From: Iocasia fonsfrigidae
GTDB taxonomy: Bacteria > Bacillota > Halanaerobiia > Halanaerobiales > DTU029
DNA: 64,000 nucleotides
Reading direction: 5' to 3'
Assembly (NCBI RefSeq): GCF_017751145.1
Contig: NZ_CP046640.1
Coordinates: 3,824,137-3,888,136 of the forward strand
Below, piece after piece: positions 868 through 64,000 of the stretch (position 1 is its first letter; each line of letters opens with the position of its first letter). The notes beneath the pieces are model-generated. The model saw nothing but the letters and a program-made list of their open reading frames with translations, was not told the DNA's origin and ran no database searches. The position numbers were made by a program, and so were the translations under genes.

Positions 868-2360
868 AATGAGTTTCCCCATTTTTAAAAATAGCAAAAA
901 CTAACCTTTACTGTCATAGTGGTAAAGAAAGTTGTAAATTGTTTTGTGATCGCTGTTTTTGGTAATAACTTTTTAAAAACGAATTTATTCCAGTGTATGA
1001 TTTCTCTAAAATAGCTTTAAAACCATCTGCTATTGCATAATAATCAAAATCCGGGAGATTAAATATTCTATCAGAAACCTTCTTTACAATTATCTTGAGT
1101 TCGGTCTGTTTTTTCTTGTTTGAAAATAGAGCTAAAAATCCTATTGCTATTGATAAAATTAAATCTAAATTTCTTATTCTTTTTAAAGATCTTACTCTAA
1201 AATTTTCAAAGTCAAACTTCTGTTTTTTGAATCTAAAATATTCTTCTATTCTCCATCTTTTAATATATGCTTTTAAAATGGTAAGAGTAAGTTTTTTAGC
1301 CTTTGGCCTTAAATTTGTAATTAACATCATTGGATTATTTCCAAGGCCTCTAACGATTACAAGAGTTAACTTTTTATCTTTTAAAGCTGGTAATTTAATT
1401 GGAGCATAACTAAATTTTAATTTTCTTTCTTTGTTATCCTGGTTGGTATAGCAATAGACATATTTACCTTTGTATAGATCAGCTATTTTCTTAATATTTA
1501 TGCTTCTGCCTTTATAAATAAGATTGCGGTTACTTTTAGCCCTAATTACAAAATCTTTATTGCTATCAGTAAAATATTTATAATAAAGATTGGCATCATA
1601 GCCTCTATCAAGGGCATAAATACCTTTTTTTCCAAAATGCTTTTCAATAAAATTAAGACCTTTTAATGCTTCAATATTTCTACTTTTAAAACCAGATTCT
1701 AAACTTGAGTAGATATGAGAGTATACTTCTATAGGCAGTTCTTTATTATCAGTTAGAGCAGCTATTTCAAAAGTATCATAACCTTTTTCAGTTTCACATT
1801 TGCTACCATCTCTAACTCTATCAAGAGCCTCCAGTTCTTTACTATAGGGTTTTACTATATCTGATTTGTCACAGCAGAAAACAGTATTATCATCAATATG
1901 TGGTTTAATCTTATTTAGATAATCAGTAATTAGTTCTTCTTGTTGATTAAAATTTTCAAGGTTTCTGGATAAACGTTCAACAGTTTTTTTGAAAAGGATA
2001 TCTTCTTTAAGAGAACGAGCAATATTACTTAAAAGTACTGATTGACCTTTTAGTAAACCATAAATCATTTGAGTAATAAATTTAGTTTTAGGTTTTGATA
2101 GGTTTTTAGAAATACTTTTAGAAAAATTGCTTACTTTTCGTTTCAATTGGTAAATAAATTTGGTATAATTACTCATAGGTGGAACAACTCCTTTTGGTTT
2201 TTGTGTCCAAACAAATTATACCAAATTCAGGAGCTTGTTTCACCTTTTTTGCGTAATCTGTGGATAACTATTTTTAAACCATTCTCAACATGAATTATCC
2301 ACAATTTTGCCTGTTGATAACTTTTTCTTTATATACACTGAAAAAATGGGGAAACTCCTG
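868..2360 (-). mobile_element. IS4-family insertion sequence, copy A
   Basis: About 1493 bp with terminal inverted repeats built on GAGTTTCCCCATTTTT. Element ends (AATGAG... and ...CTCCTG on the plus strand) were set by comparing the three copies. The flanks carry TTATTCCAAATA on both sides (856-867 and 2361-2372), a 12 bp target duplication typical of IS4/IS231-type elements. It carries one transposase. It lies between nagB and the antiterminator gene and separates them. Confidence 0.93.
914..2176 (-). CDS. IS4-family DDE transposase (copy A)
   Basis: 420-residue DDE transposase. Visible catalytic context: first Asp in FCCDKSDIVKP, second Asp in IYALDRGYD, and the glutamate with the IS4 Y-R-E-K signature in WRIEEYFRFKKQKF. 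Nearly identical to the copies at 12177 and 45324. This copy has Cys instead of Gly in the segment SKCETEKG, a single change of unknown effect. Start ATG at 2176 follows a GGAGTTGTTCCACCT-type leader. The ORF is intact, so transposition competence is plausible. Confidence 0.95.
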   Translation of the reverse strand: MSNYTKFIYQLKRKVSNFSKSISKNLSKPKTKFITQMIYGLLKGQSVLLSNIARSLKEDILFKKTVERLSRNLENFNQQEELITDYLNKIKPHIDDNTVFCCDKSDIVKPYSKELEALDRVRDGSKCETEKGYDTFEIAALTDNKELPIEVYSHIYSSLESGFKSRNIEALKGLNFIEKHFGKKGIYALDRGYDANLYYKYFTDSNKDFVIRAKSNRNLIYKGRSINIKKIADLYKGKYVYCYTNQDNKERKLKFSYAPIKLPALKDKKLTLVIVRGLGNNPMMLITNLRPKAKKLTLTILKAYIKRWRIEEYFRFKKQKFDFENFRVRSLKRIRNLDLILSIAIGFLALFSNKKKQTELKIIVKKVSDRIFNLPDFDYYAIADGFKAILEKSYTGINSFLKSYYQKQRSQNNLQLSLPL

Positions 2361-12176: not shown

Positions 12177-13439
12177 ATGAGTAATTATACCAAATTTATT
12201 TACCAATTGAAACGAAAAGTAAGCAATTTTTCTAAAAGTATTTCTAAAAACCTATCAAAACCTAAAACTAAATTTATTACTCAAATGATTTATGGTTTAC
12301 TAAAAGGTCAATCAGTACTTTTAAGTAATATTGCTCGTTCTCTTAAAGAAGATATCCTTTTCAAAAAAACTGTTGAACGTTTATCCAGAAACCTTGAAAA
12401 TTTTAATCAACAAGAAGAACTAATTACTGATTATCTAAATAAGATTAAACCACATATTGATGATAATACTGTTTTCTGCTGTGACAAATCAGATATAGTA
12501 AAACCCTACAGTAAAGAACTGGAGGCTCTTGATAGAGTTAGAGATGGTAGCAAAGGTGAAACTGAAAAAGGTTATGATACTTTTGAAATAGCTGCTCTAA
12601 CTGATAATAAAGAACTGCCTATAGAAGTATACTCTCATATCTACTCAAGTTTAGAATCTGGTTTTAAAAGTAGAAATATTGAAGCATTAAAAGGTCTTAA
12701 TTTTATTGAAAAGCATTTTGGAAAAAAAGGTATTTATGCCCTTGATAGAGGCTATGATGCCAATCTTTATTATAAATATTTTACTGATAGCAATAAAGAT
12801 TTTGTAATTAGGGCTAAAAGTAACCGCAATCTTATTTATAAAGGCAGAAGCATAAATATTAAGAAAATAGCTGATCTATACAAAGGTAAATATGTCTATT
12901 GCTATACCAACCAGGATAACAAAGAAAGAAAATTAAAATTTAGTTATGCTCCAATTAAATTACCAGCTTTAAAAGATAAAAATTTAACTCTTGTAATAGT
13001 TAGAGGCCTTGGAAATAATCCAATGATGTTAATTACAAATTTAAGGCCAAAGGCTAAAAAACTTACTCTTACCATTTTAAAAGCATATATTAAAAGATGG
13101 AGAATAGAAGAATATTTTAGATTCAAAAAACAGAAGTTTGACTTTGAAAATTTTAGAGTAAGATCTTTAAAAAGAATAAGAAATTTAGATTTAATTTTAT
13201 CAATAGCAATAGGATTTTTAGCTCTATTTTCAAACAAGAAAAAACAGACCGAACTCAAGATAATTGTAAAGAAGGTTTCTGATAGAATATTTAATCTCCC
13301 GGATTTTGATTATTATGCAATAGCAGATGGTTTTAAAGCTATTTTAGAGAAATCATACACTGGAATAAATTCGTTTTTAAAAAGTTATTACCAAAAACAG
13401 CGATCACAAAACAATTTACAACTTTCTTTACCATTATGA
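12177..13439 (+). CDS. IS4-family DDE transposase (copy B)
   Basis: 420 residues, full length, with the same catalytic motifs as copy A (CCDKSD, ALDRGYD, WRIEEYFRFKKQKF). Differs from the other copies by Asn for Lys in KDKNLTL. The near identity of all three genes suggests recent spread within this chromosome. Confidence 0.95.
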   Translation: MSNYTKFIYQLKRKVSNFSKSISKNLSKPKTKFITQMIYGLLKGQSVLLSNIARSLKEDILFKKTVERLSRNLENFNQQEELITDYLNKIKPHIDDNTVFCCDKSDIVKPYSKELEALDRVRDGSKGETEKGYDTFEIAALTDNKELPIEVYSHIYSSLESGFKSRNIEALKGLNFIEKHFGKKGIYALDRGYDANLYYKYFTDSNKDFVIRAKSNRNLIYKGRSINIKKIADLYKGKYVYCYTNQDNKERKLKFSYAPIKLPALKDKNLTLVIVRGLGNNPMMLITNLRPKAKKLTLTILKAYIKRWRIEEYFRFKKQKFDFENFRVRSLKRIRNLDLILSIAIGFLALFSNKKKQTELKIIVKKVSDRIFNLPDFDYYAIADGFKAILEKSYTGINSFLKSYYQKQRSQNNLQLSLPL

Positions 13440-45277: not shown

Positions 45278-46770
45278 AATGAGTTTCCCCATTTTTAAAA
45301 ATAGCAAAAACTAACCTTTACTGTCATAGTGGTAAAGAAAGTTGTAAATTGTTTTGTGATCGCTGTTTTTGGTAATAACTTTTTAAAAACGAATTTATTC
45401 CAGTGTATGATTTCTCTAAAATAGCTTTAAAACCATCTGCTATTGCATAATAATCAAAATCCGGGAGATTAAATATTCTATCAGAAACCTTCTTTACAAT
45501 TATCTTGAGTTCGGTCTGTTTTTTCTTGTTTGAAAATAGAGCTAAAAATCCTATTGCTATTGATAAAATTAAATCTAAATTTCTTATTCTTTTTAAAGAT
45601 CTTACTCTAAAATTTTCAAAGTCAAACTTCTGTTTTTTGAATCTAAAATATTCTTCTATTCTCCATCTTTTAATATATGCTTTTAAAATGATAAGAGTAA
45701 GTTTTTTAGCCTTTGGCCTTAAATTTGTAATTAACATCATTGGATTATTTCCAAGGCCTCTAACGATTACAAGAGTTAACTTTTTATCTTTTAAAGCTGG
45801 TAATTTAATTGGAGCATAACTAAATTTTAATTTTCTTTTTTTGTTATCCTGGTTGGTATAGCAATAGACATATTTACCTTTGTATAGATCAGCTATTTTC
45901 TTAATATTTATGCTTCTGCCTTTATAAATAAGATTGCGGTTACTTTTAGCCCTAATTACAAAATCTTTATTGCTATCAGTAAAATATTTATAATAAAGAT
46001 TGGCATCATAGCCTCTATCAAGGGCATAAATACCTTTTTTTCCAAAATGCTTTTCAATAAAATTAAGACCTTTTAATGCTTCAATATTTCTACTTTTAAA
46101 ACCAGATTCTAAACTTGAGTAGATATGAGAGTATACTTCTATAGGCAGTTCTTTATTATCAGTTAGAGCAGCTATTTCAAAAGTATCATAACCTTTTTCA
46201 GTTTCACCTTTGCTACCATCTCTAACTCTATCAAGAGCCTCCAGTTCTTTACTGTAGGGTTTTACTATATCTGATTTGTCACAGCAGAAAACAGTATTAT
46301 CATCAATATGTGGTTTAATCTTATTTAGATAATCAGTAATTAGTTCTTCTTGTTGATTAAAATTTTCAAGGTTTCTGGATAAACGTTCAACAGTTTTTTT
46401 GAAAAGGATATCTTCTTTAAGAGAACGAGCAATATTACTTAAAAGTACTGATTGACCTTTTAGTAAACCATAAATCATTTGAGTAATAAATTTAGTTTTA
46501 GGTTTTGATAGGTTTTTAGAAATACTTTTAGAAAAATTGCTTACTTTTCGTTTCAATTGGTAAATAAATTTGGTATAATTACTCATAGGTGGAACAACTC
46601 CTTTTGGTTTTTGTGTCCAAACAAATTATACCAAATTCAGGAGCTTGTTTCACCTTTTTTGCGTAATCTGTGGATAACTATTTTTAAACCATTCTCAACA
46701 TGAATTATCCACAATTTTGCCTGTTGATAACTTTTTCTTTATATACACTCAAAAAATGGGGAAACTCCTG
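45278..46770 (-). mobile_element. IS4-family insertion sequence, copy C
   Basis: About 1493 bp, same ends as copy A. Flanks share TAGTTTTCTA (10 bp; left 45268-45277, right 46771-46780) as a target duplication. It lies upstream of the DUF4178 gene, between it and the lonC terminator, and contains the same three DnaA-box-like sites upstream of its transposase. Confidence 0.93.
45324..46586 (-). CDS. IS4-family DDE transposase (copy C)
   Basis: 420 residues, full length. Differs from copies A and B by Lys for Glu in NKKRKLK and Ile for Thr in LTLIILK. All catalytic motifs are retained. It contains the usual IS4 C-terminal region with KSYYQKQRSQNNLQL before the end. Confidence 0.95.
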   Translation of the reverse strand: MSNYTKFIYQLKRKVSNFSKSISKNLSKPKTKFITQMIYGLLKGQSVLLSNIARSLKEDILFKKTVERLSRNLENFNQQEELITDYLNKIKPHIDDNTVFCCDKSDIVKPYSKELEALDRVRDGSKGETEKGYDTFEIAALTDNKELPIEVYSHIYSSLESGFKSRNIEALKGLNFIEKHFGKKGIYALDRGYDANLYYKYFTDSNKDFVIRAKSNRNLIYKGRSINIKKIADLYKGKYVYCYTNQDNKKRKLKFSYAPIKLPALKDKKLTLVIVRGLGNNPMMLITNLRPKAKKLTLIILKAYIKRWRIEEYFRFKKQKFDFENFRVRSLKRIRNLDLILSIAIGFLALFSNKKKQTELKIIVKKVSDRIFNLPDFDYYAIADGFKAILEKSYTGINSFLKSYYQKQRSQNNLQLSLPL

Positions 46771-52309: not shown

Positions 52310-52504
52310 TCACCTCTTTAAAAAATCTCCTATATCTCTTTGCCCAGATAAATAAACAGCAAACCCTATTAACCATCTAACTGTACTAGTATCCATGTTT
52401 TTTAAAAAATATCCTATTATAGCCATAACAATACAAATACAAGCTATACTATAAGTCCATCTAGCTTCAAATTTATCTGGTATTTGATTATTATCCCTAT
52501 CCAC
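52310..52504 (-). CDS. Small phage membrane protein (holin candidate)
   Basis: About 64 residues. One clear membrane helix (SIACICIVMAIIGYFL) and a weaker second one (VRWLIGFAVYLSG), then a charged C terminus. I start at GTG 52504 (MDRDNNQIPDKFEARWTY), with AGGTGGG six bases before; the longer frame to 52540 runs into the peptidase gene. It overlaps the peptidase end by eight bases. Small size and position right after an endolysin suggest a holin. Confidence 0.55.
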   Translation of the reverse strand: MDRDNNQIPDKFEARWTYSIACICIVMAIIGYFLKNMDTSTVRWLIGFAVYLSGQRDIGDFLKR

Positions 52505-52874
52505 GCATATCCCACCTAGCTTTATTTTCTCGTACATCAATATGAATTCCCCAATTATACTTGCCTATCCCACTAAACCCAGCATCTTCAGCTATAGCTA
52601 CCATTTCATCTATTGTAAGTCCTTCTATTCTTCTAAGATCAACCGCCTTCCCTTTTAAATGTTGACTATTAGGAGAACCACCAACTGATTTATTATGTGA
52701 TTCATTTCTATAAGCTGAATTAATAACAATAGCTTGTCCTAAATAATCCCTTAATTTTTGTAATTTATCTATCAATTCACTATCAACCACTACTTGATGA
52801 CTACCATCTTTACACTCAAATTCAGATAAATAAAAATTTTTGCTTATTTTAATATTATTTATGATTGCAAACAC
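52497..52874 (-). CDS. Phage endolysin, M15-type peptidase
   Basis: About 125 residues. Zinc-peptidase signature SQHLKGKAVDL near 75 (H-x6-D) and the third ligand in WGIHIDVRENKAR near 112, as in M15/VanY/Ply-type L-Ala-D-Glu or D-Ala-D-Ala peptidases. It should cut peptidoglycan cross-links or stem peptides. The visible start GTG 52874 lies inside GAGGTG, the ribosome site; the real initiator may be an ATC or ATA codon six to nine bases on. No signal peptide, so release needs a holin. Confidence 0.82.
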   Translation of the reverse strand: MFAIINNIKISKNFYLSEFECKDGSHQVVVDSELIDKLQKLRDYLGQAIVINSAYRNESHNKSVGGSPNSQHLKGKAVDLRRIEGLTIDEMVAIAEDAGFSGIGKYNWGIHIDVRENKARWDMRG

Positions 52875-53202: not shown

Positions 53203-53448
53203 CTATCCTCCAATACAATGTTTTTTTTGGTCATAAGTAAATTTAATCTCTAAATAGTCATCATCTCCTTCCATATTTCCTTCTAATTTATTTATTCTAT
53301 TGACTAAAATTTGAATAGCTTGTATAAGTTCTTCTTTAGTAATATAATTTAATTTATTAAGTAATTCACTATTTTCTTCAGATAATTTTTGATAACTTTT
53401 TTTTATTTTTAAAATGCCATCTTTTTCTTCACTTAAATAATTACTCAA
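53203..53448 (-). CDS. Small phage protein with coiled coil
   Basis: 81 residues, helical (YLSEEKDGILKIKKSYQKLS, then ELIQAIQILVNRINKLEGNM). Start TTG 53448 follows GAGGTGG by six bases and overlaps the end of the 161-residue gene. Tail or lysis-module proteins of this size are common and I cannot assign a family. Confidence 0.55.
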   Translation of the reverse strand: MSNYLSEEKDGILKIKKSYQKLSEENSELLNKLNYITKEELIQAIQILVNRINKLEGNMEGDDDYLEIKFTYDQKKHCIGG

Positions 53449-53926
53449 CGGCAACCACCTCTATTGAATCTGATATAAACTTATCATCATTACATGCTAT
53501 TGTATAAGTCCCTCCTTCAACTTCTATCTTTTTACTCCCCTGATAATTATCTAAAGGCATATTAAAACTTATCTCATTAATTAACATTTCCATGCTAGAT
53601 ATATCGGGTTGATGTTTACCTTCTAATTTAACAGTAATAATAAAAGTAGGATCATTAGATATGTTAATTTTATATTTATCACTTGTTATAATTAATTCTG
53701 GTTTTGAGACAGCAATACCATTAAATATCATTAATTCTTTTTGTGCTTGATTAGTTAACATTTCACCTTCAATTTCTGTAGTAGCCATATATTGTTTTTC
53801 TTCTTCTGATATTCTAGCACTTTTACATAATCCATTTAAAGAAGGCATAGGTGCTGAACCATGTGGTTTAGGTTGACATCTTAATATTTTATTTGTTCTT
53901 GTATCATATAATATTTTAGAAAACAT
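53441..53926 (-). CDS. Phage protein downstream of the tail tip (unknown)
   Basis: 161 residues. N-terminal MFSKILYDTRTNKILRCQPK then a C-terminal beta-rich stretch (GSKKIEVEGGTYTIACNDDK) that reads like a small structural domain. It shares one base with the end of the 578-residue protein (TAATG). In many siphoviruses a comparable gene follows the tail tip. I do not recognise the family. Confidence 0.55.
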   Translation of the reverse strand: MFSKILYDTRTNKILRCQPKPHGSAPMPSLNGLCKSARISEEEKQYMATTEIEGEMLTNQAQKELMIFNGIAVSKPELIITSDKYKINISNDPTFIITVKLEGKHQPDISSMEMLINEISFNMPLDNYQGSKKIEVEGGTYTIACNDDKFISDSIEVVAVE

Positions 53927-55662
53927 TAATCATCAGCACCCCCTTCTATTGCTAGCCACATTACTTTTCCACTAGAAATTGTTACTTCTGCTAAATACTC
54001 TACTTTTTTAACCCAATATTCAGCACGATGGGCATGAATTCCAGTAAATCTAAAAGCATATCGTCCTTTTGATAAATTAGAAATTGTAATTGATGTATCT
54101 ACCTTACCAGTATAATCATCATAAAAATATTTTAATTCAGTCCAAAAACTTTGATTAATTTCTTTATATTCTATTTTATATTTTATTCTAGGATGATGTC
54201 CAGGATCATCATCATATGCATAATATAATGTTGCACTTGTTGTGTTAGGGTCTGTATATGGAGTTATGTATTGTTGTGGAGCAGCTTTACCAGTTCTACC
54301 CTTTATTTTTGTATACCATAAATTACCTGTACTAGATATTTCTTTAGGAAAATCAGTCACTTTTATAAAATTATTAACACGAAAACCATCATTAGATATT
54401 TCTGTAGCATTGCTAATATAAATTTGATCACTTGAAGGAAAATCAGAAAGATAAGTTGTTAATTCATTAATTGCAGTTACCACTTTAGGCTTTCTCTTCC
54501 AATTCAATTCAATATAGTCCCCATCCTGTGCTGTTCCGCTAGCAATATTTTTACAATACCAATAAGGCTTATCTTCTCCCTCTTTATATAAATATAACCC
54601 TTTATCATCTAATCGAGAATAAAAACCATCACCATTAACTCTTATTCCATCATTATTAATTTTAACTGTATCACTAATTAAACTGAATTGTTCACTTTTT
54701 ATCTCACCATTAAATAAAGCATTACCATTTTTATCTAATTTAAAGTTTTCTGTGAATATTTCTAATCCTTCACCATCAAGAACAAAAAAGTTATATTCAC
54801 CAGAACCATCATCTTTACTAGCCCTTATTCCTATTTGGTTAGCATCCATAAAAATTGTACTACCTTCTGGTGTGGTATCTACTGCAAAGACAGCTTTATC
54901 TTCTCCTTCAATAATATCTCCATTTTCATCTGTAGGGAATAATCTAAAAGAATCGGCTACAAATTGTATATCTACTTTTTTTTCTGCTTCATTTACTTCT
55001 AAACCAATACCACCTATAATATCTTCACCATCAACATTTTTACCAACAATCCAGGTATATTTGTCTTGTAATTCAGAAACTGGTACACCAGGATTTCTTA
55101 ATGTCTCTGTTAAATTATTAGGACTTATTAAACTTTCATCAATATCAATAAATCTAATTTTGAAAGTTTCTACATAAACAGGGTCAGATATAGTTGAATT
55201 ATATAAAGAAGGACTCCAGTTATAGTGATAAACACTATCATATGCCCCAACTCTTACTTTAAATATTTTACCTGTTTCTGCCTGATAATAAATTATTCTA
55301 TCTTCTAATTCTTCAATATCATAATTTATAACCTCTTCATTTCCAACTGGATTATGATTGTCATCTACTTCTTGAATATGAAGCCTATATCCCAAGATAT
55401 CTTTTTCTTCAGATGTTTCATCATAAGGATAAACGGTTTGTGAAGTTTCTGAAAACGCTTTGGGTAAATTAATTTTAATACTTGCTATTAATCCTTGAAC
55501 ATCTTGCTCTTCTAATACTAATTGTTGGATACCTGGATGTTGCACTGTGATTTTACTTGGTTCACTATAATTACCGTTTTCATCTTTAGCTCGTATAACA
55601 AATGTATAATTAGTATCTCTTGGTGCACCCCTATTATATCTACCTTCAAAAGTATAACCCAT
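53926..55662 (-). CDS. C-terminal half of a gpJ-like tail-tip protein
   Basis: 578 residues. It opens in mid-domain: YTFEGRYNRGAPRDTNYTFV and IRAKDENGNYSEPSKITV are the last strands of a fibronectin type III domain whose first strands end the gene at 62305. A further FN3-like region (residues 45-165), a central fibre region like the gpJ C terminus (AVFAVDTTPEGSTIFMDANQ; NALFNGEIKSEQFSLISDTV) and a beta-rich receptor part follow. ATG 55662 follows GGGGTGG. Probably host-recognition or tail-tip protein. Confidence 0.75.
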   Translation of the reverse strand: MGYTFEGRYNRGAPRDTNYTFVIRAKDENGNYSEPSKITVQHPGIQQLVLEEQDVQGLIASIKINLPKAFSETSQTVYPYDETSEEKDILGYRLHIQEVDDNHNPVGNEEVINYDIEELEDRIIYYQAETGKIFKVRVGAYDSVYHYNWSPSLYNSTISDPVYVETFKIRFIDIDESLISPNNLTETLRNPGVPVSELQDKYTWIVGKNVDGEDIIGGIGLEVNEAEKKVDIQFVADSFRLFPTDENGDIIEGEDKAVFAVDTTPEGSTIFMDANQIGIRASKDDGSGEYNFFVLDGEGLEIFTENFKLDKNGNALFNGEIKSEQFSLISDTVKINNDGIRVNGDGFYSRLDDKGLYLYKEGEDKPYWYCKNIASGTAQDGDYIELNWKRKPKVVTAINELTTYLSDFPSSDQIYISNATEISNDGFRVNNFIKVTDFPKEISSTGNLWYTKIKGRTGKAAPQQYITPYTDPNTTSATLYYAYDDDPGHHPRIKYKIEYKEINQSFWTELKYFYDDYTGKVDTSITISNLSKGRYAFRFTGIHAHRAEYWVKKVEYLAEVTISSGKVMWLAIEGGADD

Positions 55663-55672
55663 TTAACCACCC

Positions 55673-58438
55673 CTATTTACTATAATATCTACCTTTCATT
55701 AGTAATTCCCCTGCAATTTTACCATCAAATTCTGCTAGACCTATACCCTTAGCAATAAACTCTCCTTTAGTTATACTAGCAGGTTTTATAATTCCTGTCC
55801 CTAGACCATTACCTTCATATTCAATAAATGTTCCAACTATTACTCTATGATAACTAGTTCTACTTCTTTCACCACTACCTGCTCTTTCAGGAACTGAATT
55901 AATTGATTTAATTTTACTTTCTAAAATAGTTAATAGTTCTTTATTTACTTCTGTATTGATTGGGTTTGTATACGAATCAACTTTAATAGAAGTTATTCTA
56001 CCAGGTTCAGACTTTATTTTTAAATAACTATTTATTGTTACAGTTCTTTTTTGTGTTGTATTAAAACCTATATTAAGTGTAGAAGTCACTCTTTGGGCTT
56101 GTTCTGTTATAATAGCAGGATTTTGGATATTATTTATATGAGAAGTTACTGTTACAATTTGCATGGGTTTACTTTCTATTCTTCTCATATGTGATCTAAC
56201 AATTGCAGGATTTGTAGCAACTTTAGAAATAATTTTATCTACTGAACTAAATTCATATTCTGGTCTTATCTCAGTATTCATTTTGCTTATATATGATTCT
56301 ACTGTTTTTTCAACTGCTTTTTTGGCTTCTGAAACAATTATATTCAAATGTGATTTTACTATTCTAGCACCTTCAGCAGTAACATTAGAATCAATATTTT
56401 TTAAATAACTCTCTAATATTTTAACAACTTTTTCTCTATTAGTTTCAGAATCTATACTATTAAGATAACTTTTAACTAATTGAGCAGTTTCTTTTTTAGT
56501 TGAAGAACTAATATTATTAACATGTGAATTTATTTTTCTTTCAATAGTTTCTTTAATATATTCATATCTTAAATCACTATTTATTTTATTTACATGAGAA
56601 CTAATAATACGTGGAGCAGTAAATGCTTTTCCACCAAGTTTATAAGTATATGAAGTAACTATTATATTAGGATCAGCTGTACCATATACAGAAAAAGAAC
56701 TTAATTGTGGTGAATAAGATGTATCTCTTGTATTGTAATTGATTATTATTTTAATAGATTCGCCAGGTAAAATATCAGCAATATCATAAGCATAACTGGT
56801 ATCATGGTCTATTAAATTAAAGGTTTTTTCATCATTTATGGTTATTCTATCATCACTTGTCTGGATAGTGATTGTTCCAGAACTTACATCAGGTAGATTA
56901 GGAACAATTTTTAAAACATTAAACACAGGATTAAAACCTACAAAAGCCCATTCAGTCTCATAGCTGCCGGAAGTAGTATATACACCATCAACATTTAATC
57001 TCATATATACATTTTTATCAGTATGAGTACTAAAAACACCTTCAGCTTTATATTGACTGGAATCACTTACACTTCTAGTTGTCTGTCCAAAAGAAGTTGC
57101 TAAAGGGTGGATATCTTTATCTACCCAGTGAATATCTCTGCTGTATCGAGAATAATGAACAATCCTATAAGTATTTCCAGCTAATAAAGTGGTATTAACT
57201 CCACTAACCTTAGCCCAACCTTCTGTAAGTTGAGGATTCTGTTCAATTGTTTCATTTATCTTTTCCCAACCATTTTCAGTCTGTTCAAAGATACAGACTT
57301 TCATATTCATGGTTAATTCAGTAGTATACAATACTTCTATATCTTTAATCACAACTGATTCAATTACATCAATTTCATAACCATAACCATAACTCCAACC
57401 CTCTTGAGTTGTTTGATAACCAGCTAACACATCAGTTGTTACATTTTCTCTTGTTTTGGCTAATTCAAGTTGCTTATTCTTGACTTTAGTATTATTAAAT
57501 GTTCCATATTTAAAATTGTTATTGTCAAAAGTAATTAAAGGAGGATTTTGATAATTTAGTTGTTCAATATCAGATGCTATGTTTAAATGAGAATCTCCAA
57601 AAAACAAACTTCTAATTAACTCTACTTCAATAATATTACTATTAAATTCTTTATATTTAAGGAGAGATACTTCCTGTATTGAACTATATTTTATTTTAAC
57701 TTTATTATTTTCATTATTATCCTTAATTAGAGAAATTTCTTGTTGAGAATCAATAATTGATGAAAAAGAATTTGTTGTTACAGTTTGCAATGTTCCTTGT
57801 ATTGATATTTGATATATAGTATCAGCAATTGCGTCAAGAGTCCACAGATTAGTTCCATCCCAAGTCAATCCAAAGAGATAATATATAGAAATTGCAAAAC
57901 TGGAAATAACATTTCCACTAATATCTAATTGATATATTGTACTAGGTTTATTAGCAATGCTGCTCGAGCTCCATAAGTATTCTCCATCCCAAGTTAATCC
58001 TTGAATATTGCTATTATCGGGAGTTATAAAACTAGAAATAACATTTCCATTAATATCTAGTTGATAGATTATATTAGTATAACTACAGTGAACCCATAGA
58101 TATTCTCCATCCCAAGTTAATCCTTGAGGAAATCTTTCCGGTGCAGGAAAATTAGAAATAACATTTCCATTAATATCTAGTTGATAGATTGTATCTGTAC
58201 CGTAATTGCAATACCACAAATATTCTCCATCCCAAGTTAATCCACCATGATTGTATTTATCTGGCGCAGAAAAACTAGAGATAATATTACCATTAATATC
58301 TAGCTGATAGATGTTTCCTATATTTTCTGTGTTATAATCTGACCCTGCAACCCATAGATATTCTCCATCCCAAGTTAATCCAGCGGGATTTTCTCCTGGG
58401 CTAGAGAAACTAGAAATAACTTCCCAAACCAAATACAT
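55673..58438 (-). CDS. Phage tail fibre with propeller-like and SHxNxI repeats
   Basis: 921 residues. Residues ~10-220 hold five ~42-residue repeats (GLTWDGEYLW ... IYQLDINGNVISSF), which look like beta-propeller blades. A beta-rich middle (VCIFEQTENGWEKINETIEQ) resembles a fibre-tip carbohydrate-binding region. Residues ~620-870 have about eleven ~20-residue units around V-x-S-x-x-x-x-I-x-S/T (e.g. VKSYLNSIDSETNREKVVK, VESYISKMNTEIRP). I start at ATG 58438 behind GGAGGGGGTG. Predicted adhesin or fibre. Confidence 0.72.
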   Translation of the reverse strand: MYLVWEVISSFSSPGENPAGLTWDGEYLWVAGSDYNTENIGNIYQLDINGNIISSFSAPDKYNHGGLTWDGEYLWYCNYGTDTIYQLDINGNVISNFPAPERFPQGLTWDGEYLWVHCSYTNIIYQLDINGNVISSFITPDNSNIQGLTWDGEYLWSSSSIANKPSTIYQLDISGNVISSFAISIYYLFGLTWDGTNLWTLDAIADTIYQISIQGTLQTVTTNSFSSIIDSQQEISLIKDNNENNKVKIKYSSIQEVSLLKYKEFNSNIIEVELIRSLFFGDSHLNIASDIEQLNYQNPPLITFDNNNFKYGTFNNTKVKNKQLELAKTRENVTTDVLAGYQTTQEGWSYGYGYEIDVIESVVIKDIEVLYTTELTMNMKVCIFEQTENGWEKINETIEQNPQLTEGWAKVSGVNTTLLAGNTYRIVHYSRYSRDIHWVDKDIHPLATSFGQTTRSVSDSSQYKAEGVFSTHTDKNVYMRLNVDGVYTTSGSYETEWAFVGFNPVFNVLKIVPNLPDVSSGTITIQTSDDRITINDEKTFNLIDHDTSYAYDIADILPGESIKIIINYNTRDTSYSPQLSSFSVYGTADPNIIVTSYTYKLGGKAFTAPRIISSHVNKINSDLRYEYIKETIERKINSHVNNISSSTKKETAQLVKSYLNSIDSETNREKVVKILESYLKNIDSNVTAEGARIVKSHLNIIVSEAKKAVEKTVESYISKMNTEIRPEYEFSSVDKIISKVATNPAIVRSHMRRIESKPMQIVTVTSHINNIQNPAIITEQAQRVTSTLNIGFNTTQKRTVTINSYLKIKSEPGRITSIKVDSYTNPINTEVNKELLTILESKIKSINSVPERAGSGERSRTSYHRVIVGTFIEYEGNGLGTGIIKPASITKGEFIAKGIGLAEFDGKIAGELLMKGRYYSK
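57835..58430 (-). repeat. Tandem ~125 bp repeats coding for propeller blades
   Basis: Five direct copies, each with TATTCTCCATCCCAAGTTAA and a paired stretch with ACATTTCCATTAATATCTAG on the plus strand. They encode the GLTWDGEYLW ... DINGNVISSF units. The near-identical DNA suggests recent duplication and potential for recombination-driven change in blade number. Confidence 0.7.
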
Positions 58439-58465
58439 CACCCCCTCCACTACTCCTAATCACTT

Positions 58466-61333
58466 TTAATTCTCTACCCATGTAGCTCCATATATAACAC
58501 CATGATTATCATTACCACTAGAATCAATTAATACTCCATGATTAACTTGTCTATCACATCTATAGTAAACGACTAAGCCTTCTTCATCTCCTGTAAGTCG
58601 TCTGTTCATGTTATTTTTTATTTCTTGTTGTGATAAAGTTCTATTCCAGATACGAACTTCATCTAACATATGTTTACCATATGAATTTTGGACGCTATTT
58701 ATAAAATGTCCTCCAACTATAGTATAATCTAAAGTGCTATTTATAATTGTATTTCCTTGAAAAGATGATACAAGCTGTCCTTCTTTATAAATATATAATA
58801 CTCCCGAAGTGTCTCTAGAAAATACAAAGTTTAGAAATTCATCGTAGTCATCCGTTGTTAACTGATATGATACTGTTCCGGGGTCAGAACTAGAATTATC
58901 AGCCCATTCAAAGCGCAATCTACCTGTTTCAAACTCCACAAATATTCCTAACCCATAACCTTGCCATCCATTATTATTCTGTCCGATTAAATAAGCCCTT
59001 TTATTTAATCCACGTTCGCTACTATCCAGATATACCTTTAAATCAACAGTAAATTCTAAGGTTTTTACTAATATAGAATTTACTTTTACATAATCATCGA
59101 TGCCATCAAAAGATAATGAATAAGGATTATAATTATCTAATACTTCTCCACCTGTAGTAGCAACTGCTCTGTAATAATAAGGTTTACTATTATCTAATCC
59201 TGTGATGGTTTTTGAAAATGTTATAGGTAATACTAAGTTTTCAGGGGATTCAGTATATGTTGCACCATTAATAATACCATCATTACCATTACCTGATAAA
59301 TCTACTAGAGTAGTTTCATCATTATTAGAATTATCACAATTATAATAAGCTATTAATCCTTCTTCAGTACCTGTTAATTTTTTATTCATGTAATATTGGA
59401 TTTCTGATTGAGTTCTATCATAATTCCATATTCTGAATTCATTAATATTACCATACCAATACCTATCTGTGTTAAAACCTCTTCCTATTTGAACATCAGA
59501 CATATTCGATGGTATATAAGAATGAGATTCATCAAAAACTAATTCTCCATCTAAATAACCTTTGACATTATTAGAACTAAAATCCCACACCAATGCTACA
59601 TGGTAAATTGTATTAACCATTAAAGAATTGGTATAAACATGATTTAAATGAGACGAACTATTCCCTATGCATGCGACAAATCTACCGTTAACATTCTCTT
59701 CAAAACGAATGGCATTATCACCACCTGCAAAATTCGTTGTAAAACAATTATTATAATTTTCCAGTGCTTTAGAATCCATCATAAATTCAATAGTGCCTAT
59801 AGTAGTTTGATTACCCAAATTTCCTATATCCACATAATCATCAACTCCATCAAAACTTAATACAGTATCTTTAATAGTTTGAGGTTCTGTTTCCTGTATT
59901 TCATAAACATTATCAGATAACTCTAATTCTGCTTCTCCTGGTACATAACTAGCGCCATATATAGTACCATCATTTCCGTTACCAGTAGCATCAATTAAAG
60001 TATTTCCAGTTCCTTCATCACAACGGTAATATGCTACAAGACCCGGTTCATTACCTGTAAGTTGTATATTCATATTATTTTGTATTTCTTGTTGGGATAA
60101 GGAACGGTTCCATATTCTTATCTCATCTACTCCCATTTCAGAAAATTGTGTATTATTATCACTTCTTTTTCCTAGAATTAAATTATATTGTCCTAATGCA
60201 TCATTAGCATGTGACCATGTATGTAATAATTCACCATCTACATAAAAATAAACATTAATTCCATCACGTACAATAGAAGCCATTTGCTGTTTAGAATTAA
60301 GACTAAAGTCAGGATAATTATTAAGATAATCAGCACCCCAAATCATTCTCAACATTCCATCATCCATACGTTTTATCATCCAACGATTGCTCCCATAGCC
60401 TCCGTAGTCAATAAACGTTTGAATTTGATTTTTGTCAGTTAATTGCATAAAAAATTCTATAGTAAAACTATCTTGTATCAATGCAGATTGATAAGGAATT
60501 TCTACATAATCATCAACACCATCAAAACTTAAAGCATATGGATTATTAATATTATTTAATTTACTAAATTCAGGATTAGTACTATATTGGAATTTACAAT
60601 CTACAGTAGGGTAATTAATAATTTCTTTTAATTTTCCATTAAGTGTCATCCTATCATAAGTAACATCTGTTGGTGGTAAAGTTGCTACATCAAGAAATTT
60701 TGTTTTAAAATCAACTGATCCATTTACATATGTTGCACCATAAATTATTCCATCATTTCCATTAGAAGAAGAGTCAATTAAAGTATTTCCAGAACCTTCA
60801 TCACATCTATAATGTGCAACTAAACCTTCCTCATCTTCTGATAAATATTTATTTATATTATCTTGTATTTCTAATAAAAAATAAGTACCTTTTCTTATTA
60901 TAATTTCATCTAAATTACCATTTAAATAAAATTGTGAAGCAATACCACTTTTACCTAATATAAAATCGAAATTTCCTATATTTCCAGAATAAGGCATTGA
61001 AAATTTCTCATCTGCCACTATAAAATTTATAGTTGTTCCATTCCTATGTAAAATAATAGGAAGCCAAGTATCAATATATTCATTTGCGGTAACAAAACGT
61101 TCTGCCCCATTAAAAAATAATCGAATATTATTAGTTCCACTTTTTGTTATTATTGTAAACCCTTCCGAAGAATTATACCCTAAAGAAATTAATGTTTGAT
61201 AAGTACTTGAATTTTTTAAATATGCCCAAAATGAAATATAAAAATCATCTGAATTAAGATTAAAATTTGATGAAATTTGAACGTAATCATCAACACCATC
61301 AAAACTAAGTGCATATGGATTATTTAAAGCCAT
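58466..61333 (-). CDS. Phage tail fibre with four LamG/concanavalin-like domains
   Basis: 955 residues. Four units begin with SFDGVDDYV (or SFDGIDDYV) at about residues 8, 275, 505 and 745, and end with GLVAHYRCDEGSGNTLID-type sequence containing GNGNDGIIYGATY. They match LamG_3-type jelly-roll domains, which bind sugars or proteins. Linkers between domains 1/2 and 3/4 are FN3-like. I start at ATG 61333 (MALNNPYALSF) behind GGGGGTGATAGG. Likely host-surface adhesin. Confidence 0.8.
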   Translation of the reverse strand: MALNNPYALSFDGVDDYVQISSNFNLNSDDFYISFWAYLKNSSTYQTLISLGYNSSEGFTIITKSGTNNIRLFFNGAERFVTANEYIDTWLPIILHRNGTTINFIVADEKFSMPYSGNIGNFDFILGKSGIASQFYLNGNLDEIIIRKGTYFLLEIQDNINKYLSEDEEGLVAHYRCDEGSGNTLIDSSSNGNDGIIYGATYVNGSVDFKTKFLDVATLPPTDVTYDRMTLNGKLKEIINYPTVDCKFQYSTNPEFSKLNNINNPYALSFDGVDDYVEIPYQSALIQDSFTIEFFMQLTDKNQIQTFIDYGGYGSNRWMIKRMDDGMLRMIWGADYLNNYPDFSLNSKQQMASIVRDGINVYFYVDGELLHTWSHANDALGQYNLILGKRSDNNTQFSEMGVDEIRIWNRSLSQQEIQNNMNIQLTGNEPGLVAYYRCDEGTGNTLIDATGNGNDGTIYGASYVPGEAELELSDNVYEIQETEPQTIKDTVLSFDGVDDYVDIGNLGNQTTIGTIEFMMDSKALENYNNCFTTNFAGGDNAIRFEENVNGRFVACIGNSSSHLNHVYTNSLMVNTIYHVALVWDFSSNNVKGYLDGELVFDESHSYIPSNMSDVQIGRGFNTDRYWYGNINEFRIWNYDRTQSEIQYYMNKKLTGTEEGLIAYYNCDNSNNDETTLVDLSGNGNDGIINGATYTESPENLVLPITFSKTITGLDNSKPYYYRAVATTGGEVLDNYNPYSLSFDGIDDYVKVNSILVKTLEFTVDLKVYLDSSERGLNKRAYLIGQNNNGWQGYGLGIFVEFETGRLRFEWADNSSSDPGTVSYQLTTDDYDEFLNFVFSRDTSGVLYIYKEGQLVSSFQGNTIINSTLDYTIVGGHFINSVQNSYGKHMLDEVRIWNRTLSQQEIKNNMNRRLTGDEEGLVVYYRCDRQVNHGVLIDSSGNDNHGVIYGATWVEN

Positions 61334-61365
61334 TCCTATCACCCCCATCAAAGTAAGAGTGGAAA

Positions 61366-61479
61366 TTAATCCACTCTTTTTTCTTTTTCTTTTGCTTTCA
61401 ACTTTTCATTCATTTTTTCAGGATTAAACAAATTTCCTATATCAATTCTACTGTTTACTACTACTGTTTTTTCATCCAT
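61366..61479 (-). CDS. 37-residue charged phage microprotein
   Basis: MDEKTVVVNSRIDIGNLFNP then EKMNEKLKAKEKEKRVD. ATG 61479 lies two bases from the preceding stop and has GGTGGTG at a good distance, so translation is plausible. Half hydrophobic/beta, half lysine-rich helix. No family recognised. Its 3' end overlaps a hairpin with a T run on the plus strand (see rejected). Confidence 0.5.
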   Translation of the reverse strand: MDEKTVVVNSRIDIGNLFNPEKMNEKLKAKEKEKRVD

Positions 61480-61481
61480 AA

Positions 61482-61835
61482 TTACACCACCTGGGGAATT
61501 TCAATACGATGCTTTACGGTCAGTTCATCACTGGTAGTATTAATCGTAAATGCTTCAAAAGTCTCATCTGCTAAAGGTTCACCTTCTGTTGCTACATTAT
61601 AAATTTCACTACCCGCAAAAATTTGAGGTGTGGTAACATCTGTATCTGCTCCTGATATTACGGTAGTTAATTCTAACACCTGTGCTCCAACAGCATGTGT
61701 CCAGGAAACCCTTGCATCAGCAGTAGAAAGTCTAAGTATTTCTGCATCTTCATCATCTCTCAAAGAATGATAAATCCAATTTGCCTCAATAAAATCCCTT
61801 ACAGTTTGATAGCCAGCTTCTGTTATTTCAGCCAT
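61482..61835 (-). CDS. Phage structural/tail-fibre-associated protein (unknown)
   Basis: 117 residues, beta-rich (VLELTTVISGADTDVTTPQI, FTINTTSDELTVKHRIEIPQ), starting MAEITEAGYQTVRDFIEANW. Resembles short tail-fibre or decoration proteins that accompany Gp80-like genes. RBS AAAGGAGAG before ATG 61835. Function unknown. Confidence 0.6.
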   Translation of the reverse strand: MAEITEAGYQTVRDFIEANWIYHSLRDDEDAEILRLSTADARVSWTHAVGAQVLELTTVISGADTDVTTPQIFAGSEIYNVATEGEPLADETFEAFTINTTSDELTVKHRIEIPQVV

Positions 61836-61885
61836 ATTATAAACACTCTCCTTTTGGTTTTTTATATTTTAAATTTGCTTAAAAT

Positions 61886-62293
61886 TTAATTCAATGTTAA
61901 TTGTAAACCACCAGCAGGAATTCTATAGGTATCTCCTGCAAAAACCTCTCTTACATTAGCAGCAGGACACCAGTATAAAATATTACCTCCTGTTACTGCA
62001 TCACAAACAATGGCATATTTTACGTTTGTTACAGGCATATCAACAAAATCAATACTAGTATCATTTTCAATAGTAGCCTTTCCATCTGCCTGTGTAACTC
62101 CAGTAAAAGAAATTACTTTTCTATCCCCTGAATAAGCAGTTATTTCATTTGTTAAATCACCTTCTTCCAATTCTGTATCAGTAGCAATATCATTTACTAA
62201 TCCTAAATAAATTGTTATAGGTGAATTATAAGTGATTCCATTAAAGATATGATTTAATATTTTTTCTTCTAAATAATTGCTTATATTAGCCAT
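61886..62293 (-). CDS. Phage tail-fibre-type protein (Gp80-like)
   Basis: 135 residues. NISNYLEEKILNHIFNGITY at the N terminus and TIYLGLVNDIATDTELEEGD then ISFTGVTQADGKATIENDTS. The C-terminal half has IPAGGLQLTLN, matching a small family of phage fibre or tip proteins. GGGAGGTGAG precedes ATG 62293. First gene of the block inserted into the gpJ-like locus. Confidence 0.65.
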   Translation of the reverse strand: MANISNYLEEKILNHIFNGITYNSPITIYLGLVNDIATDTELEEGDLTNEITAYSGDRKVISFTGVTQADGKATIENDTSIDFVDMPVTNVKYAIVCDAVTGGNILYWCPAANVREVFAGDTYRIPAGGLQLTLN

Positions 62294-62304
62294 AACTCAC
62301 CTCC

Positions 62305-64000
62305 CTAACCATTTTCAACTGTAATTTCATATTGATCAAAAGAATCATCAGGATGAGGCTGCCACACTAATTCAACTTTATCAGCAAACCAAGTAATCCT
62401 ATCCCATTCAATTACACCAGGTGAACCTGCTATAATTTCAACAGTATCTTCATCACTTAATTCAGCTTCATTTCCGCTATTATCGACAATAGACACTTTA
62501 TAAGAATACTCACTACCGTATTCTACTGTAGTATCTATATAAGAATTAGTTCTATAATCAACACTATCAATTATTGTATAAGTTGATTCTTCAGCTGGTT
62601 TACGGTAAATATTATAATGACTTAAATCATATTGAGAACTCTTATTCCAGGATATTTCAACTCTACTTCCTTTTGTTGATGCCTTTAATAATAAGGCATT
62701 AACTCCTGTTACTTTATTAAGTGTTATAAAATCACTTGGTTCTCCATTATTAATACCGTTTAAAGCTGGATTACCATCAGCTGTATATTCCCAATTGCTG
62801 GCCTGTGCCTGCTCTAATTTCAATTCCATTTCCCATTTACCATTTTTAAATCCATGTTTAATTTCTTTTATAAAAAAGTCATTATCTATATCTCTATTTT
62901 TTTGATGAACATGTACTTTATCCATCAATTCTAAAAAAGGCAATGGTTTTGTTTTGATTGTTAATACTGATTTAGGAGTAGAATATTGATATAGTAAATA
63001 TTTAGCAAGTTTCTTTAATTCAGTCTCTGATGAAATATAATCTAATTCAATATCAGACATTTCATATTTACCATATGCTTCTATACTCGGTTGATCAGCT
63101 TCTGTTATTTCAATTACATTACTTCTCTGTAAAGGTTCTCCTACTAATATTGGAGTGTTTTTAGTATCTTCTCTATTAAGTAAATAACCATACAACTCAA
63201 TAGGTCTATCAGTTTTATTAGTTATTTTAACTTTTACATTTTTTTGGTCTTCATAAATTTTTTGTTCAAAATCAAGTGAAATATCATCTGGATCAGAGAT
63301 GTTTTGACCTATATCATCTAAATACTTAATAAATAGAGCTTTTTTAAATGTCTGAATAAAAATATGTGAAGCTTTTTCAGATAAAATAGTATTACCATTA
63401 GGATCTATAATCTCAACCAATAATTCTTTAAAAAGTCTCCAGAAAATAATATTTTCTGATGGGACTAAAGAAGTTTTTATTGTATAATTACCTGTTGTAG
63501 GAATATTAATATGCCCATCTTTTTGAACAGCACGTTCTTCGGAACCTACAATATTACTTATTCGCCAGTTGATAACTACTCCGGCTTGCAAATAAAATTG
63601 TTTTTCACTTTTTCCTGTAAGCATAAATTCTTTTTCTATAAAAGAATAATCAATTTGTTGATTATCATCAGAAAATCTAGCTAATAAATTCAATGGTTCT
63701 ATATTTACTGCTGGATCATCTAAATGAATAATAAATTCTCTTATACCATGTGGGGCTAATTTATTAAAATAAAATTGATATTTAACTCTTAAGGTATCTG
63801 TATCTGCAATTTCTAGTTCCCCATGTGCTGCTTCAAAAGCTATTACTCCTTTATCATAATCAGAAGAAGCTAGTCCCCCATTAAGGATATAGTTAGTATC
63901 TGTATTTATATCATATACACTTATACTCCCTGGAATAATAGGAGTATTTTTAGTTGCTTGTTCAGTGGTTTCGCCTTCTGGTACATATGTTAGTTGCAAT
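62305..64000 (-). CDS. N-terminal part of a gpJ-like tail-tip protein (5' end outside window)
   Basis: At least 565 residues, running off the right edge. Beta-rich siphovirus tail-component region (LNLLARFSDDNQQIDYSFIE; LLYQYSTPKSVLTIKTKPLP), a hydrophobic FN3 domain (VTGVNALLLKASTKGSRVEI to VSIVDNSGNEAELSDEDTVE), then a second FN3 that stops after WFADKVELVWQPHPDDSFDQ and YEITVENG. The missing strands of that FN3 are at the start of the gene at 53926. So this is the front half of a single ancestral tail-tip gene. Confidence 0.75.
   Translation of the reverse strand, partial: LQLTYVPEGETTEQATKNTPIIPGSISVYDINTDTNYILNGGLASSDYDKGVIAFEAAHGELEIADTDTLRVKYQFYFNKLAPHGIREFIIHLDDPAVNIEPLNLLARFSDDNQQIDYSFIEKEFMLTGKSEKQFYLQAGVVINWRISNIVGSEERAVQKDGHINIPTTGNYTIKTSLVPSENIIFWRLFKELLVEIIDPNGNTILSEKASHIFIQTFKKALFIKYLDDIGQNISDPDDISLDFEQKIYEDQKNVKVKITNKTDRPIELYGYLLNREDTKNTPILVGEPLQRSNVIEITEADQPSIEAYGKYEMSDIELDYISSETELKKLAKYLLYQYSTPKSVLTIKTKPLPFLELMDKVHVHQKNRDIDNDFFIKEIKHGFKNGKWEMELKLEQAQASNWEYTADGNPALNGINNGEPSDFITLNKVTGVNALLLKASTKGSRVEISWNKSSQYDLSHYNIYRKPAEESTYTIIDSVDYRTNSYIDTTVEYGSEYSYKVSIVDNSGNEAELSDEDTVEIIAGSPGVIEWDRITWFADKVELVWQPHPDDSFDQYEITVENG

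Follow-up and report, generated by a model that had tools for sequence, protein, structure and literature searches.

The locus analysed here raises the question of whether a tail-tip protein encoded by two genes, with the break inside a fibronectin type III (FN3) domain and fibre genes in the gap, is a damaged gene or a working arrangement. The stretch of DNA under study (the window, G000:C1:3824137-3888136) covers 64,000 nucleotides of a 3.93-Mb chromosome from a Halanaerobiales-type bacterium. Both open reading frames (ORFs) named in an earlier sequence-only reading of the window were confirmed at their positions. The upstream one, encoding the hub or N-part of a gpJ-type tail tip, occupies 62305 to 64000 on the minus strand and is cut by the window edge. 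It runs on to about 64911, and the full ORF (L002:13305-15911) encodes 868 aa in an open frame of 870 codons. This hub matched the PF16467 and YQBQ-like profiles, and its hub region also matched the phages Slash and MaeS. The downstream ORF (53926..55662, minus strand) encodes the central fibre or C-part, of 578 aa. The hub and C-part genes have their own ribosome-binding sites, in the window and in the related viral contig L043 alike. The order of hub, FN3 domain and central fibre, in a gene position after the tape measure, is that of a gpJ-type tail tip. However, the typical continuous polypeptide is replaced here by two genes with separate start signals.

The hub ends with ...IEWDRITWFADKVELVWQPHPDDSFDQYEITVENG (longer stretch: ...VELVWQPHPDDSFDQYEITVENG), and the central fibre begins with MGYTFEGRYNRGAPRDTNYTFVIRAKDENGNYSEPSKITV. 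A half-domain profile located strands A, B and C of an FN3 domain at the C-terminus of the hub (residues 832-868; 62308..62418, minus strand). The profile of the C-terminal half matched the C-parts of the window and L043 from position 1, which placed the remaining strands of the window pair in residues 1-41 of the central fibre (55540..55662, minus strand). Neither the hub end nor the fibre start alone matched the Pfam FN3 family (PF00041). When joined, the window pair reached 19.0-19.4 bits (E about 0.0015) over profile positions 15-80/84, a modest score below the Pfam curated cut-off of 25 bits. Seven intact FN3 domains of phages were made into a profile, on which the matches of the three N halves fell within positions 2-41 (14-35 for the window) and those of the C halves within 55-86. 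The fused L043 pair scored 30.9 bits, compared with 18.9 and 19.8 for its halves, and none of the 2000 shuffles of either half reached this value. The fused window pair scored 19.1 bits, compared with 12.7 and 14.0, which was reached by 11/2000 and 1/2000 shuffles. A control in which real fragments were fused to each half was invalid because the fragment pool contained intact FN3 domains; the shuffle controls stand. Profile-profile comparison of the joined pair with intact FN3 domains of phage gpJ proteins gave an alignment over the full length, with a probability of 97.6 (E=3e-12). The joined pair also matched a chitinase FN3 domain in the PDB (6bt9, E=5e-4), and the alignment crossed the junction. 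At the sequence level, the proposed split of a tail-tip protein in the middle of an FN3 domain is borne out, with halves that lacked a Pfam FN3 match on their own matching across the junction when joined.

From the core of strand C to that of strand F, the joined window pair has 23 residues and that of L043 has 20, compared with 24 in 6bt9 and 30-32 in the intact phage homologues. This spacing is near that of 6bt9, and therefore the two chains could supply a complete, compact FN3 domain. The rebuilt domain possibly has a shortened strand D (also called C'). AlphaFold predictions of the parts, run with one or two sequences, gave pLDDT values of 32 and 38, which were too poor to judge the fold.

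Relatives of the locus (L041 to L045) were retrieved with the gp80-like gene of the cassette as bait. Without this bait, earlier scans of the viral and genome collections with single proteins or profiles had returned nothing beyond a locus of the same family (G004). A tblastn search of the INPHARED phages found no relative of the C-part, and the N-part gave hub or FN3 matches only. In L043, the break fell at the same position of the FN3 domain as in the window. Its genes encode, in order, a 1000-aa N-part, a gp80-like protein, a 282-aa protein, a 573-aa C-part and a relative of the 161-aa protein that follows the C-part in the window. The L043 N-part ends with ...DNIYWGADYIEITWKPHPDEDFDEYELRKDPYFGE, and its C-part starts with MGYRLEKPRQEQYTFYIAALDSSGNYSEP. 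The window and L043 share 31% identity between the N-parts and 42% between the C-parts, whereas the half-domains are conserved above these averages (47% vs 31% in the hub, and 56-60% vs 42% in the C-part). The conservation of the hub end was not extreme, with 11% of windows in the hub equally conserved. Half-domains that are better conserved than their proteins on average appear unlike decaying stumps. The same split occurs in L043 with other cassette genes, and it is therefore an established arrangement rather than a one-off event at this locus.

L041 and L042, which are 95% identical to each other, carry a different hub of the lambda-gpJ type (PF13550) that ends in the same half-FN3 and is followed by gp80. 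Both contigs stop before any C-part, and both halves were seen at two loci only (the window and L043). The N-half profile matched the last 37-45 residues of the hubs of the window, L043, L041 and L042 only.

The sequence-only reading had proposed a search for uninterrupted gpJ-like homologues as a check, and these were found in the Achromobacter phages JWF and 2-1 and in the G020 and G034 prophages. In their gpJ proteins, the same FN3 domain lies on a single chain, the N-half followed by the C-half, with neither the break nor the cassette. The L041 hub and the intact G020 prophage gpJ share 36% identity in an alignment that reaches YEVR of strand C. Past this strand, the G020 protein continues through the rest of the FN3 domain, and the G034 protein is similar. 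In phage 2-1 gpJ, the N-half profile matched residues 740-777 and the C-half profile residues 804-819, within one domain. HTVC026P and P26059A showed a weaker form of this pattern, and the same FN3 domain was intact in phage JWF gpJ. The hub type of the window occurs within single proteins of Slash (1970 aa) and MaeS (1784 aa), with other domains after the hub. Because intact single-protein relatives exist, the single-gene form, which appears widespread, is probably the older one. Cassette-less relatives consisting of two genes with the same ends, a case that had been raised against the split, were not seen; relatives without the cassette carried the domain in one protein.

A prophage of the same family (L029) has a single tail-tip gene encoding 956 aa, the C-terminal region of which matched the distal part of the 578-aa central fibre. 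The idea that this protein is an uninterrupted counterpart of both parts together was rejected; its C-terminal part is homologous, but its hub is not detectably so. The intact comparison therefore rests on the G020 and G034 prophages and the phage gpJ proteins. In L029 (11045-14747), a separate gene directly after the single-gene tail tip encodes the distal fibre domain once more (279 aa), and the 956-aa protein is matched by an H-type lectin domain. Shortly downstream lies a relative of the gene for the 161-aa protein (L029:14757-15233). The 161-aa protein of the window, encoded directly after the C-part (53441..53926, minus strand), is 38-40% identical to this relative and is also related to L043:13040-13447; no family match was found for it. 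Members of this family occur just after the central-fibre genes in three tail clusters (the window, L029 and L043), and directly after them in the window and L043.

The cassette between the two halves spans 6.6 kb with four or five genes in the window, compared with 1.3 kb and two genes in L043, and gp80 alone is common to both. Its first gene encodes a 135-aa gp80-like fibre adaptor (61886..62293; PF23140, E=4.6e-28) that is 52-64% identical to its counterparts in L043 and L041, which are likewise encoded after the hub. Then follow an ORF of 117 aa without a family match (61482..61835) and a possible 37-aa ORF read by eye (about 61367..61480). The next gene encodes a 961-aa fibre or adhesin with four LamG-type lectin domains (58466..61351; PF13385, 4 stretches, E=9.6e-55). 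The last product, of 925 aa, is a fibre or adhesin with N-terminal propeller-like repeats (55673..58450); it contains repeated GLTWDGEYLW...YQLDINGN units and had no confident family match. All of these genes are on the minus strand. The earlier count of five fibre or adhesin genes between the halves was fair, given four ORFs of 117-961 aa and the possible small one. No homology was found between the last cassette genes of the window and L043. Podophages and myophages also have members of the gp80 family next to their tail and fibre genes, and such neighbours would fit an adaptor role. A role of gp80 as a dedicated partner of the half-FN3 was considered and rejected, as gp80-like genes occur elsewhere without a half-FN3 before them.

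The arrangement might be attributed to recent damage, in which the cassette broke a once-intact gpJ at this locus and left the halves as remnants of a decaying prophage. Such an origin would agree with the intact single-protein relatives, which probably represent the older form, and with a locus without head genes. Nevertheless, the same break is found in L043 with other genes between the halves, ribosome-binding sites are present at both genes in both loci, the half-domains are conserved above average and the tail and lysis frames are all open, so we regard damage as very unlikely. The proposal of the sequence-only reading that a fibre module was inserted in the domain holds at most in an evolutionary sense. 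As a one-off event it conflicts with the split in L043, the separate ribosome-binding sites and the flanks of the cassette. No recombinase was found among the cassette ORFs of the window, and no direct repeat beyond chance was found at the cassette flanks in the window or L043. The longest word common to the window flanks had 8 bases, compared with 7-11 in shuffled flanks. These results also bear on the idea that the cassette is removable, with DNA excision or splicing joining the halves into one gpJ under some conditions. All that speaks for it is that the frame seemed, in the earlier reading, to be restored where AATGGTTA meets AATGGGTTA. That match at the two ends is a chance one, since the 8-base word is no longer than those in shuffled flanks, and the AATGGTTA repeat was rejected as an insertion or excision scar on the same ground. 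The C-part also has its own start signals in both loci, and on all these grounds a removable cassette is hardly credible.

An alternative without complementation deserves more weight than these two, although we still consider it unlikely. The ends would be trimmed and capped, the gp80-like adaptor or a different product of the cassette would cover the hub stump, and the hub and fibre would bind through whole domains as in T5 pb3 and pb4. It agrees with the position of gp80 directly after the hub stump in all four loci where this could be seen (the window, L043, L041 and L042), and with the binding of T5 pb3 to pb4 by FN3 loops (PMC10038345). However, gp80-like genes also occur in podophages, myophages and other contigs without a preceding half-FN3. 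Capping would moreover leave unexplained the matching half of the C-part, which has the same start in two phages.

We therefore favour, as the probable explanation, a conserved two-gene tail tip in which the break lies inside an FN3 domain, the halves rebuild one FN3 domain between the two polypeptides and a variable fibre cassette occupies the gap. The break would fall between strand C and strands E, F and G of one domain, so that the hub would end in strands A, B and C and the central fibre would bring the remaining strands. During assembly, the two polypeptides would rebuild the domain by strand complementation, and a string of FN3 domains, linked non-covalently but without a structural interruption, would run from the hub into the fibre. 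The variable cassette, headed by the gp80-like adaptor, sits between the two genes. Of the two sheets of an FN3 domain, one consists of strands A, B and E and the other of strands C, D, F and G. With a break between C and E, both sheets therefore depend on both chains. The physical complementation is what we infer here, together with a trimeric assembly and a role of the cassette proteins as side fibres or adhesins. The half-FN3 was found on two unrelated hub types. More tentatively, the half-domain pair could be a standard plug and socket between interchangeable hubs and fibres that leaves the gap free for exchange of whole cassettes, which we regard as possible rather than probable.

According to the account in PMC11666773, which cites Dutta et al. 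2005, the two fragments of a monobody (an FN3 domain) that has been cut in its CD loop refold when they are mixed, although the split form is less stable. The phage pair is similar in that its natural break lies in or near the same CD-loop region, as that account places it, but the split monobody is artificial, while complementation of the phage pair is what we infer. In phage T5, the hub pb3 and the central fibre pb4 are two proteins along an FN3 string, with two FN3 domains at the end of pb3 and three at the start of pb4 (PMC10038345). The hub and central fibre are likewise two proteins here, and they would also be joined along FN3 domains. However, the T5 break lies between whole FN3 domains, whereas the present break lies inside one, with a fibre cassette between the genes. 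Lambda gpJ has its hub, FN3 and central-fibre parts in one protein, and the HDII-insertion domain of lambda is common to gpL and gpJ, whose genes are separated by K and I (PMC10721106). This is a precedent for one tail-tip domain made from two gene products, but that domain is in the hub rather than being an FN3 domain at the hub-fibre joint, and the intervening genes are not a variable fibre cassette. The sequence-only reading had stated that no phage was described with this exact arrangement. For the mid-domain break the statement held, as a search of the open-licence literature turned up no conserved mid-FN3 break combined with interchangeable hubs and cassettes. It did not hold for the two-gene hub and fibre of T5 pb3/pb4 or the common domain of lambda gpL/gpJ, which were already known. 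What appears new against that literature is the conserved break inside the FN3 domain, with hubs and cassettes that can be interchanged. If the proposed complementation is correct, phage tails would conserve in nature what the split monobody does in the laboratory. The joint between hub and fibre, which carries a mechanical load, could then be non-covalent and exchangeable, and it would mark a site where tail fibres swap as cassettes with the hub untouched. The split FN3 also offers a directly testable peptide pair.

The two genes belong to a tail cluster of about 19 kb located between host genes, those of the rpsF/ssb side near 51.4 kb and those of the ptsI side near 72.4 kb (window scale). 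The cluster extends from about 51786 in the window to L003:3200 (about 51.8-72.2 kb, window scale). Its regulators are one repressor and a divergent sigma-factor gene. The tail genes encode tail proteins, a tail chaperone that is likely extended by frameshifting, the tape measure, a 114-aa protein and the hub. Besides the fibre cassette, the central fibre and the 161-aa protein, the cluster encodes small proteins, holin-like proteins and an M15-type endolysin (52497..52874, minus strand; PF08291, E=1.4e-22; phrog_894 endolysin). Profile searches of the cluster ORFs recognised no capsid, portal, terminase or integrase. Divergent head genes might evade profiles, yet no unassigned cluster ORF of fitting size was left. 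Because none of these genes was recognised, the cluster resembles an F-type tailocin (a headless siphophage tail). It has the expected gene content of a non-contractile tail with fibre and lysis genes but without head or packaging genes, and combines these with regulators in its short span. In contrast to the described F-type tailocins, this candidate is known from its genes alone, and no close described relative was found.

Several further features were noted around the cluster. The tape measure (L002:16288-17967; window 65288-66967) has 559 aa, or about 655 if the open stretch upstream, which has no usual start codon, is counted, and carries repeats of about 95 aa. The 559-aa form is about one third of the 1668-aa homologue in L043, and the tail is therefore probably much shorter than in the related phage. 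The gene for the 170-aa chaperone has an in-frame slippery heptamer, A AAA AAG, close to its end (about 18656 in L002, or about 67656 on the window scale). The -1 frame is open after the heptamer, and programmed -1 frameshifting of the G/GT type is likely. Reverse-transcriptase genes lie beside variable-protein-like genes, near gp80 or gpJ, in L043:15223-18159, L044:573-3449, L045:2654-5185, L082 and L083. These loci look like diversity-generating retroelements acting on the fibre proteins of related phages; no such element was seen in the cluster of the window. A transposase gene is present three times in the window (914-2176, 12177-13439 and 45324-46586), and the copies, with a DNA identity of 99.6-99.7%, represent a recently active insertion sequence.
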